From: Prevotella falsenii DSM 22864 = JCM 15124
Lineage (GTDB): Bacteria > Bacteroidota > Bacteroidia > Bacteroidales > Bacteroidaceae
Assembly (NCBI RefSeq): GCF_000613945.1
Contig: NZ_BAJY01000002.1
Location: 1-64,000, forward strand
DNA length: 64,000 bases
Direction: 5' to 3'
The notes under the pieces are model-generated. The model was given only the letters and a program-made list of their open reading frames with translations. It searched no databases and was not told where the DNA came from. The translations under genes and the position numbers were made by a program. Numbering within the stretch: position 1 is the stretch's first letter; each line of letters opens with the position of its first letter. Below, one piece after another: positions 6,513 through 20,092 of the stretch.

Positions 6513-7871
6513 ATGGAAAAGACCGATTTAATTATAATCGGTGCTGGTCCCGGAGGCTATCATACAGCTGTGCATGCGGCAAAAGATGGCCTCAAGGTTA
6601 CCATCATCGAGAAACGAAATCCCGGGGGTACGTGTCTGAACGAAGGTTGTATACCTACGAAGAGCTTTGCTCACGATGCTGACCTCTATCGCAACCCTCT
6701 GTTGTCTTGCGTGGGGGGCGGCAGTGTTAATTTCGCTCGCATACAAGAGCGTAAGAACAATGTTATCGCTCAACTGCGCGAAGGCGTAAAGGGGCTGATG
6801 TCGATGCCCGGCATCACCTATATAGAAGGTGAAGCAAAGTTTGTGGATAAGAAAGTAATAGAAGTGAACGGCATACAGATGACAGCCGATAACATTATTA
6901 TCGCCACAGGTTCGCACGCTCGTTTGCTTCCGTTTATCCCTGCTTTCGATACACCTGAAGGTGAACCGTTGAAAGACAAGGTTATGACTTCTACCGAGTT
7001 GCTCGATATAGACCACGTTCCACAGACAATGGCTATTATCGGTGCGGGTGTTATCGGGCTTGAATTGGCTTCTGCCTTTGAAACATTCGGCAGTTCGGTT
7101 ACAGTCATCGAGTTCTTGAAAGAATGTTTGCCTACTATCGACTCTGATATTGCAAAGCGTTTGCGCAAGACATTGGAGAAACGTGGCATCAACTTCAACA
7201 TGAATAGCGGCGTCAAGAGTATCGTTGCCACCGACGACAAGAAGCAAGCGATTGTTACTTTTGAACAAAAGGGACAGGAGAAGCAAGTGGTTGCCGATGT
7301 TGTGCTTGTTGCAACAGGACGTGCTGCCAACGTTGAAGGGCTCGGACTTGAAGCAGCGGGTATTAACTGCATCAAGCAAGGCATTGAAACCAACGAACAT
7401 TACGAAACCAATGTTCCCGGTGTTTATGCCGTTGGCGATGTCAATGGCAAGCAGATGCTTGCACATGCTGCAAGTTTCCAAGGAACACACGTCATTAACC
7501 GCATACTTGGAAAGGACGATAAAATACGCTTCGACATTATGCCGGCAGCAGTATTTACCTATCCCGAAGCCGGTTCGGTAGGACTATCGGAAGATGCTTG
7601 CAAGAAAGAGAGCATAAGCTACACCGTTAAGAAAGGTTTCTATCGCTCTAATGGTAAAGCGTTGGCAATGGAAGAAACCGAAGGAATGGTGAAGGTAATG
7701 GCAGACGAGAATGGAAAAATACTGGGTTGCCACGTCTTTGGTGCCCACTCTGCCGACATCACACAAGAGGTAGCCGTTCTTATGAACAACGATACAACAC
7801 TTGCCGACCTTGCCGACATGATTCACATACACCCAACCATTGGCGAGGTACTTTATGAAACAATAATTTAG
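6513..7871 (+). CDS. lpdA: Dihydrolipoyl dehydrogenase (L protein)
   Basis: This FAD enzyme reoxidises the dihydrolipoyl arm of GcvH with NAD+. The 452-residue product starts with the FAD-binding GAGPGG motif. The redox disulfide is CLNEGC (C41 and C46), a second dinucleotide site is GAGVIGLE, and the FAD-binding AVGDVNG and C-terminal HIHPTIGE (His-Glu pair) are present. It closes the gcv operon, so a dedicated L protein is supplied with T, H and P. It might also serve 2-oxoacid dehydrogenases; none is in this window. Confidence 0.95.
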   Translation: MEKTDLIIIGAGPGGYHTAVHAAKDGLKVTIIEKRNPGGTCLNEGCIPTKSFAHDADLYRNPLLSCVGGGSVNFARIQERKNNVIAQLREGVKGLMSMPGITYIEGEAKFVDKKVIEVNGIQMTADNIIIATGSHARLLPFIPAFDTPEGEPLKDKVMTSTELLDIDHVPQTMAIIGAGVIGLELASAFETFGSSVTVIEFLKECLPTIDSDIAKRLRKTLEKRGINFNMNSGVKSIVATDDKKQAIVTFEQKGQEKQVVADVVLVATGRAANVEGLGLEAAGINCIKQGIETNEHYETNVPGVYAVGDVNGKQMLAHAASFQGTHVINRILGKDDKIRFDIMPAAVFTYPEAGSVGLSEDACKKESISYTVKKGFYRSNGKALAMEETEGMVKVMADENGKILGCHVFGAHSADITQEVAVLMNNDTTLADLADMIHIHPTIGEVLYETII

Positions 7872-7879
7872 TGCAAATG

Positions 7880-7910
7880 TTTGGTACATCGAAAAAAAGT
7901 GCTACCTTTG
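7880..7910 (+). promoter_or_regulatory. Promoter of a structured RNA upstream of ribE
   Basis: TTTG (7880-7883), a 19-bp spacer and TACCTTTG (7903-7910) form a strong Bacteroidetes promoter. It starts immediately after lpdA and points at a non-coding stretch rather than directly at ribE. Confidence 0.75.
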
Positions 7911-7916
7911 TGCTTA

Positions 7917-8182
7917 GAAAGGAAAAGCTATAGTCGTATCGATTCGATTGGGATAGTCATCAAATAAATCTGAAAACCGAGAAGACTTCTCTTGACAATG
8001 GCGGGCCACATAAAACGCATTTCAGCGACTAAACCTTCGGGTCGGTGGATTACAAAAGCAGAGAGCTCTCTTATCATAGATACTCGGACTTTTCATCACA
8101 TCATCGATACGGCTTTCTCAAATCCTCTCAATACGAGGACTACAAAAAAGGTGGAGTTCCAAAGGAGTTCCACCTTATTTTT
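7917..8182 (+). ncRNA. Structured non-coding RNA, 6S-like candidate
   Basis: A strong promoter and a T-tailed terminator (8148-8182) enclose about 265 bases with no credible coding frame. CGTATCGAT (about 7935-7943) is the perfect complement of ATCGATACG (about 8103-8111), closing a domain of roughly 180 nt. Inside are smaller pairings such as CCAC with GTGG, CGAC with GTCG, and a GAGAAG/CTTCTC block. One long, bulged hairpin of this size is the hallmark of 6S RNA, which binds the RNA polymerase holoenzyme. The transcript structure is well supported; the 6S identity is inference and was not tested against a covariance model. Confidence 0.55.
8148..8182 (+). terminator. Terminator of the structured RNA
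   Basis: AAGGTGGA (8148-8155) pairs with TCCACCTT (8168-8175), with further TCC/GGA pairing inside the loop, followed by ATTTTTTG. It lies 54 bases before the ribE start, so it ends the RNA or attenuates ribE. Confidence 0.75.
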
Positions 8183-8235
8183 TGTGAGTAAAAGCATTCC
8201 TGCAAGTTTAATAAAGTTTTTAATAATAAGGAATT

Positions 8236-8841
8236 ATGTTCTCCGGAATTGTAGAAGAAATGGCACAAGTGGTTGCCATTGAGCGTTATCAAGAAAATAT
8301 AAACTTCGTTTTAAAGTGTTCGTTTACGAGTGAATTGAAGATAGACCAAAGCATTGCACACAATGGCGTGTGTCTTACGGTAGTCCGCCTGCAAGGCGAA
8401 ACCTATACCGTAACAGCCATGAAAGAAACTTTGGACAGGTCGAACCTTGGTTTGCTGAAAGTGGGCGACCGTGTAAACGTAGAACGTTCCATGCTGATGA
8501 ATGGTCGTTTAGATGGTCATATCGTTCAAGGGCATGTAGATGAAACTGCTCGTTGCATTGCTATGGAAAATGCAAATGGCAGTACCTATTTCACCTTTGA
8601 GTACAAGGGCGATGTAGAAATGGCACAGCGAGGCTACTTCACTGTGGATAAAGGTTCGGTTACAGTCAATGGCGTATCGCTGACAGTGTGCGAACCCACT
8701 GCCAACACTTTCAAAGTGGCAATTATTCCCTACACGCTCGAAAATACAAACTTTGCCGAGATACAAGTAGGGACGGTTGTAAATATTGAGTTCGACATAC
8801 TTGGCAAGTATATAGCAAGGCTCAATAGTTTGTCAAAGTAG
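8236..8841 (+). CDS. ribE: Riboflavin synthase alpha subunit
   Basis: This enzyme converts two 6,7-dimethyl-8-ribityllumazine molecules to riboflavin plus a pyrimidine. The 201-residue product begins with the family signature MFSGIVEE. It carries the tandem lumazine-binding repeats, seen as HNGVCLTV in the first half and VNGVSLTV in the second. No other rib gene is nearby. I found no FMN riboswitch consensus upstream; the terminator of the structured RNA lies between promoter and start. Confidence 0.95.
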   Translation: MFSGIVEEMAQVVAIERYQENINFVLKCSFTSELKIDQSIAHNGVCLTVVRLQGETYTVTAMKETLDRSNLGLLKVGDRVNVERSMLMNGRLDGHIVQGHVDETARCIAMENANGSTYFTFEYKGDVEMAQRGYFTVDKGSVTVNGVSLTVCEPTANTFKVAIIPYTLENTNFAEIQVGTVVNIEFDILGKYIARLNSLSK

Positions 8842-9003: not shown

Positions 9004-9196
9004 ATTTTGTAAAGATAATTCTCTTAAAAAGTGATAAAAGCACTTTGGCGTTGCGAAACCGTAGGTTTTGCAACGCAAAACCTACGGTTTTACCGTGCAA
9101 AACAGCCGCTTTTGCATTGCAAAACAATAGGTTTTACAATGCATTGATAACGAGATAGTTACACAAGATGTATCGTTGCTAAAAATCTTTACATAT
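9004..9196 (+). repeat. Brick-array element, copy A (four 22-bp bricks)
   Basis: This copy has a leading end (ATTTTGTAAAGATAATTCTC, then AAAAAGTGAT), four 22-bp bricks at 9055-9076, 9077-9098, 9099-9120 and 9121-9142, and a trailing end finishing near AAAATCTTTACAT. Bricks follow the pattern AAAAC, 5 bases, GTTTT, 5 bases, GC. Bricks 1 and 2 face each other: AAACCGTAGGTTTTGC (9056-9071) is the exact reverse complement of 9075-9090 with a 3-base loop. The ends are weakly inverted (GTAAAGAT and ATCTTTAC). The remainder of the ribE-aspS gap (about 9197-9472) shows nothing I recognise. Confidence 0.85.
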
Positions 9197-19891: not shown

Positions 19892-20092
19892 TAATTTTGT
19901 AAATATTTCTCCAAGCTTTAGCTCTTGCCTAACTTTCTCGTTACCAGCGTTTTACAAAACCTATTGTTTTGCATTCTAAAAGCGGCTGTTTTGCACGGTA
20001 AAACCGTAGGTTTTACATCGCAAAACCTACGGTTTCGCAACGTCAAATCGCAATTATCACTTTTTAAGAGAATTATTTTTACAAAATCAAAG
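19892..20092 (-). repeat. Brick-array element, copy C
   Basis: This is a full copy in reverse orientation. Its ends are ATTTTGTAAATATTT on the left and TTATTTTTACAAAATC on the right, which are inverted relative to each other. Between them lie four 22-bp bricks with the same order as copy A, including the facing pair that can form a stem. It lies about 210 bases before the gene at 20305; the rest of that gap (20093-20304) shows no clear promoter. Confidence 0.85.

Follow-up and report, generated by a model that had tools for sequence, protein, structure and literature searches.

Background

6S RNAs are about 160–200 nt long, conserved widely and usually encoded by a single gene per genome, and they accumulate as cells approach stationary phase. 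The rod-shaped RNA imitates an opened promoter and idles the housekeeping holoenzyme, and the synthesis of a pRNA on it releases the enzyme; in E. coli the rod is made up of a closing stem, a central bubble and an upper stem. The E. coli gene, ssrS (Rfam family RF00013), specifies an RNA of 184 nt and forms a dicistron with FAU1/ygfA, for which co-transcription was shown in a paper that also gives the role of the RNA (PMC7641849). Within the Bacteroidales, a 6S RNA with pRNA and pRNA*, two classes by dRNA-seq, was reported from Bacteroides thetaiotaomicron (Ryan et al. 2020, PMC7366714). Two families bear on the same group, both from a single paper (Weinberg et al. 2010, PMC2864571): Bacteroidales-1 (RF01693), and 6S-Flavo (RF01685), a 6S candidate of the Bacteroidetes. 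One Bacteroidales-1 RNA has been annotated in each of the Porphyromonas gingivalis strains covered in PMC5771137. The printed consensus of RF01693 has base pairs only in the middle of the model, leaving roughly 54 positions at the start and 60 at the end unpaired.

Results

The locus lies in a window of 64 kb (the whole stretch of DNA that was analysed, 64,000 nt) from a Prevotella-type Bacteroidales genome. An earlier note on this DNA had placed a probable 6S RNA between lpdA and ribE and had called for a covariance search with 6S and Bacteroidales RNA models. The position was confirmed, with lpdA, a dihydrolipoyl dehydrogenase-type gene (Pfam PF07992 and PF02852), upstream at 6513–7871 and ribE, encoding riboflavin synthase (two stretches matching PF00677, lumazine-binding domains), downstream at 8236–8841, both on the + strand. 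Of 123 homologous loci, the window, L022 and L024 are the only three with lpdA in the 120 nt upstream. The Rfam scan of the window gave a match to RF01693 at 7932–8120 (+) that scored 117.9 bits against a cut-off of 60 and covered the model at full length (1–179 of 179); it was the only gathering-level match in the whole 64 kb, so no different RNA family was significantly matched. The conserved core, running from one arm of the closing helix to the other at 7932–8114 (+) as delimited by the RF01693 match and the homologous loci, is 183 nt long and has one match in its own genome, which agrees with the size and copy number of the 6S class. The classic family RF00013 gave no match in the genome at E ≤ 10, in a search whose control matched 8 of 14 genomes, 4 of them over the cut-off, and with the assembly 94% complete no competitor for the 6S role is therefore seen. 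RF01685 had no match in the genome, and the control genomes likewise gave none. A candidate L20-leader match was rejected at 24.3 bits versus a cut-off of 58.7, resting mainly on the terminator hairpin. We read the locus as the 6S RNA gene of this genome, with a probability of about 0.93, a reading supported by the above-threshold membership in RF01693 and by a covarying 6S-like rod with an open central bubble.

The promoter that the earlier note had described was borne out by a full match to the Bacteroidetes consensus, TTTG-N19-TACCTTTG, at 7880–7910, in which the −33 element TTTG occupies 7880–7883 (+; consensus taken from PMC7366714) and the −7 element TACCTTTG (consensus TAnnTTTG) occupies 7903–7910 (+). 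TTTG-N19-TAnnTTTG has this sole match on both strands of the 64 kb, where the chance mean is 0.53, and since at least one match appeared in 43 of 100 shuffles, the match alone is not significant. The promoter is credible because 109 of the 123 homologous loci have a TAnnTTTG box in the 45 nt before the closing helix, against 4.7 expected. Of these 109 promoters, 90 also have TTG at the −33 spacing, against 24 expected. The claimed terminator was likewise present, as a separate intrinsic terminator at 8148–8183 (+) consisting of a 13-pair hairpin (8148–8176) and T's up to 8183; a hairpin search over 7800–8300 found this one, with 0.4 expected. With its start taken from the promoter and its end from the terminator, the predicted primary transcript would span 7917–8183 (+). 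The size of about 265 nt proposed earlier therefore holds for the likely primary transcript and not for the shorter conserved core.

The same stretch had been said to offer no coding frame, which was essentially right. The longest + strand frame is a TTG-started ORF of 96 aa (7992–8282), and its overlap with the locus is the point in favor of a short coding gene; this frame passes through the terminator and over the ribE start in another frame, and substitutions at the locus follow base pairs, as described below, which makes either a short coding gene or plain intergenic sequence extremely improbable.

Beyond ribE, a REP-like palindromic repeat with the core CCGTAGGTTTTGCA was observed between ribE and aspS (9059–9087), and further copies lie near 20004, 36511, 46137 and 55853 in the window. 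The core has 17 matches in the window at up to 2 mismatches, with 0.42 expected, and 93 + 86 exact copies genome-wide versus 0 for a reversed control pattern.

For the comparative analysis, 153 loci with the core motif were collected, of which 30 were dropped because the 5′ or the 3′ anchor was missing, in some cases at a contig end, leaving 123. The closing helix, P1, pairs 7932–7943 with 8103–8114 (+). It contains the helix between CGTATCGAT (7935–7943) and ATCGATACG (8103–8111) on which the earlier reading was built, and is longer than had been stated, with 12 pairs including one G-U. In an arm-swap test, closing-helix arms were permuted among the 123 loci independently of the alignment A2 described below. 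The mean duplex energy with the own arm was −21.5 kcal/mol versus −13.4 kcal/mol for swapped arms, none of 10,000 permutations reached as low a value, and the own 3′ arm was within the best tenth in 102 of the 123 loci. The window's own arm duplex has −17.4 kcal/mol, and four foreign 3′ arms would pair better with its 5′ arm.

Two alignments were used to count covariation. A2 comprises 35 representatives (at most 80% identity) aligned with MAFFT without structure; the ends of six rows (L003, L005, L007, L016, L027 and L034) were shortened by hand to line up the closing helices, so A2, and the covariance model R1 built from it, lean toward P1. Cells with both-sided change numbered 138 in A2 versus 49 in shuffles, a count reached by 0 of 500 shuffles. 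A3 comprises 97 rows (96 distinct) fitted to the structure model and hence leaning toward that structure. In A3, 89.2% of cells were paired versus 77.4% in shuffles, and both-sided change occurred in 29 of 35 pairs (18.2 in shuffles) and in 484 cells (119 in shuffles), including all 11 pairs of helix 1 and all 8 of P3; none of 500 shuffles reached any of five measures, and every slid control was far lower.

The elements of the rod follow each other inward from P1 on the + strand. The helix GAU 7946–7948/AUC 8100–8102 was paired in 97.2% of A3 cells and is followed by a helix below the bubble, AGUC 7955–7958/GACU 8087–8090, in which pairs are exchanged among loci. The central bubble has a 5′ strand at 7959–7978, unpaired in the structure counted on A2 and A3, and a 3′ strand at 8071–8086, which across 131 of 153 loci has a median of 15 nt before GGA and 30% GC. 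Above it, helix P2 (GAG 7979–7981/CUC 8068–8070) was paired in 99.7% of cells and alternates between GAG/CUC and GGG/CCC, the middle pair in A3 being AU in 73, GC in 19 and GU in 4 rows (n = 96). The imperfect helix P3 (7987–7996/8058–8065) was paired in 92.4% and 78.1% of cells in its two halves, and helix P4 (CCAC 8006–8009/GUGG 8045–8048) in 100% of A3 cells. Two near-invariant segments adjoin these helices: AUGGCGGGCC at 7998–8007, conserved in alignments A1 and A2, part of which was the locus search pattern, so that the named loci have it by choice, and GGAUUACA at 8047–8054 in the alignment. RNAalifold on A2 recovered P1, P2, P3 and P4, with P1 and P2 appearing unprompted; run on A1 it omitted P2.

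The bubble is less securely delimited at its lower edge, since RNAalifold on A2 placed the 5′ strand below the bubble in a local hairpin that replaces GAU/AUC and ACUC/GAGU, the long-range pairs, and joins GAU to an AUC downstream of CUC. Among the 129 of 153 loci with both anchors, the helix below the bubble reads ACUC/GAGU in 124, AGUC/GACU in 4 (the window included) and AACC/GAGU, with the helix broken, in 1, the other letters of this helix being fixed by the anchors. We kept the long-range pairs because the 3′ partner changes along in the four loci with G for C, where the local-hairpin pair would break; these four loci probably reflect one double-change event. In A3, just 70.9% of ACUC/GAGU cells were paired, which we ascribe to a variable U count shifting columns by one. 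The local hairpin may be an alternative to the long-range pairs. When the latter form, the open A+U-rich strands are 20 nt and 16 nt long; otherwise the modelled bubble would extend down toward P1. With either pairing, the predicted order of closing helix, bubble, upper stem and variable tip is that of a 6S RNA, to which covariation on A2 and A3 and the arm-swap test point alike. A promoter mimic in the form of a TAnnTTTG copy in the 3′ bubble strand was tried and rejected, the mean best match being 3.29 of 6 versus 3.30 in shuffled sequences, with 115 of 200 shuffles as good; the corresponding statistic for the 5′ strand (3.60 versus 3.32) was set aside, as in the window's row the search pattern had matched the closing helix.

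The 272-nt transcript folded better than 200 of 200 shuffles (z = −3.2). For the 183-nt core alone z was only −2.0, with 6 of 200 shuffles equally good, so folding energy is weak evidence here and the comparative evidence carries the case. The single long bulged hairpin drawn in the earlier note is upheld by the comparative structure; the minimum free energy (MFE) fold of the single sequence agrees with it in the closing helix and departs from it in the interior. The MFE is −44.3 kcal/mol versus −38.6 kcal/mol for the best fold keeping the consensus pairs and −21.5 kcal/mol for those pairs alone.

The 3′ end differs among relatives. In 119 of the 123 kept loci the sequence after the closing helix was scored, and a T-tract followed the helix immediately in 99 of these, versus 18 to 60 of 119 at seven control offsets; by a stricter measure the tract was found in 76 of the 123 loci. 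A T-tract adjoining the helix suggests that the closing helix may double as the terminator in many species. The window is without a T-tract at the closing helix and has the separate hairpin instead. Such a hairpin was found in 34 of 123 loci by a finder that accepts unbroken stems only and misses imperfect ones; 11 loci had both features and 24 had neither.

RF01693 was found in 35 of 60 genomes, the window's own included, comprising 30 of 36 genomes of the same genus and 5 of 24 from other families, each represented by one genome; one of these five matches was below the cut-off. The six same-genus genomes without RF01693 are all at most 85% complete, and no match was obtained in 20 of 25 families of the order (one genome each, the window's own family apart). 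R1, the covariance model rebuilt from the 35 sequences of A2, the window among them, with the fuller structure, matched 116 of 121 genomes of the window's family, with all 16 of 16 genera represented, in single copy except for one genome with two. The family sample was requested at 95% completeness (the window's own genome stands at 94%), and R1 had no match in 5 of the 121, estimated as 95–99% complete. On the set of 60 genomes R1 matched 39 at E ≤ 0.01 and 38 at E ≤ 0.001, the threshold of the RF01693 search, and the four genomes that it added are weak, at 27–46 bits. It scores above RF01693 inside the window's family and below it in the four other families where RF01693 is over its cut-off, for example with 119.8 versus 138.7 bits in G058; in G039, too, R1 is lower, at 28.1 versus 37.5 bits. 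Run on 98 of about 155 loci, R1 matched 97. A core-motif scan of contigs gave at least 119 stretches, and the matches listed are nearly all from Bacteroidales, including Bacteroides, Parabacteroides, Dysgonomonas, Porphyromonas and Prevotella.

Several outlying records were also noted. L084, labelled Rhodobacteraceae, was rejected as a homolog, having no match with R1 or Rfam. Diverged RF01693-like RNAs occur at L053:1683–1856 and L063:757–934 (54 and 50 bits with R1), the former scoring 61.7 bits with the RF01693 model and the latter falling below its cut-off; both records are metagenome-assembled genomes, labelled Saccharospirillaceae and Chryseobacterium gleum, and the contigs are perhaps mis-binned or from other Bacteroidota. 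Weak R1 matches of 27–46 bits were seen in five other Bacteroidales families (L167, L168, L169, L170 and L035); TAnnTTTG lies within 60 nt upstream in L167 only, so the promoter does not corroborate these five as a group. In L167, L168, L169 and L035 a tail rich in GGG and T comes immediately after the match, which hints that the closing helix with its T-tract is the older terminator.

This distribution bears on whether the RNA could be a structured sRNA of unrelated function, such as an antisense regulator, that merely resembles 6S RNA. Rfam's descriptor for RF01693, '6S-Bacteroidales RNA suggested', goes no further than 'suggested', and the 6S function assigned to the locus is a comparative one, which leaves room for such an sRNA; it is nevertheless very improbable given the presence of one copy in almost every genome sampled from the family, the long rod with a conserved open bubble and the pRNAs reported in Bacteroides (PMC7366714).

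On the downstream side, 66 of the 123 loci have ribE on the same strand at a distance of at most 600 nt. The named records with this arrangement carry Prevotella or Prevotellaceae labels, plus one Marseilla massiliensis; L102 and L113 (Prevotella and Prevotellaceae) and L028 and L029 (the window's genus) are without a downstream ribE. In the 65 loci where the gap between the RNA and ribE was measured by start pattern, its median was 41 nt and it was below 45 nt in 34, some gaps being slightly underestimated because the arm-swap duplexes can include part of the T-tract. From the start of the RNA to that of ribE, none of these 65 loci has a TAnnTTTG, a pattern that other promoter types would escape. 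The short gaps and the lack of an intervening box suggest a 6S–ribE transcription unit like E. coli ssrS–ygfA, so that ribE may be co-transcribed in related species.

The same observations, together with the '?' that marks the cis-regulation of Bacteroidales-1 in Weinberg et al. (PMC2864571), are what favor a cis-acting leader of ribE, flavin-sensing or attenuating, over a stand-alone RNA. Of the 106 loci whose downstream sequence exceeds 700 nt, 45 had no downstream ribE by tblastn (1e-8), Bacteroides, Parabacteroides and Porphyromonas records among them, yet the core and promoter persist there, which indicates that the RNA is not generally a leader of ribE. In the window, moreover, no Rfam riboswitch family matched at its cut-off, and the terminator stands between the RNA and ribE. 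We therefore consider a ribE leader quite improbable and retain the 6S RNA as the preferred reading.

Discussion

The kind of RNA found here is already known, since a Bacteroides 6S RNA with product RNAs has been reported (PMC7366714), and the locus is an ordinary member of a catalogued family. The B. thetaiotaomicron 6S RNA comes from the same order as the window and may be the RF01693 RNA; the main text of PMC7366714 makes no link to ribE, the word 'riboflavin' having 0 occurrences in it. Relative to the RF01693 model, the closing helix and P2 are additions to the model and not molecular differences. With the classic 6S RNA, the locus shares its length class, a cofactor-metabolism gene next in line and, by covariation, the sequence of closing stem, central bubble and upper stem. 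It differs in having no RF00013 match and a promoter of the sigma-ABfr type, and its neighbor is ribE and not ygfA/FAU1, with co-transcription suggested only.

By analogy with known 6S RNAs, transcription would start near 7917, as placed from the promoter, and in the window's clade would end at the separate hairpin near 8183, after which the precursor would be trimmed toward the closing helix. The rod would then mimic a melted promoter and occupy the active site of the sigma-ABfr housekeeping holoenzyme, and a polymerase idled in this manner would be most useful when growth slows. Once nucleotides return, the polymerase would use the 5′ bubble strand as the template for a short pRNA, proceeding toward the closing helix, and this synthesis would disrupt the fold and free the enzyme. 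We infer, from the behavior of known 6S RNAs, a pRNA start opposite C7961, which is invariant in A1 and A2, and the predicted pRNA region would extend toward the closing helix over 7940–7961 (−).

A tentative extension concerns ribE. In Prevotella-type Bacteroidales, the 6S RNA and ribE might form one unit in which ribE lacks its own promoter and is expressed solely by readthrough past the 6S end, tying riboflavin synthesis to 6S output. This end would be the separate hairpin in the window's clade and the closing helix plus T-tract elsewhere. We regard this proposal as possible and somewhat doubtful.

Conclusions

The analysis extends the secondary structure of RF01693 by two covarying elements, a closing helix and a helix above the bubble, and the fuller structure points to a concrete predicted pRNA start in Prevotella-type species. 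The recurrent 6S–ribE arrangement in this lineage is the less familiar feature. If the readthrough proposal is true, the arrangement would stand as an independent counterpart to ssrS–ygfA in E. coli, and the 6S rod would serve both as a polymerase decoy and as an attenuator of a cofactor gene.
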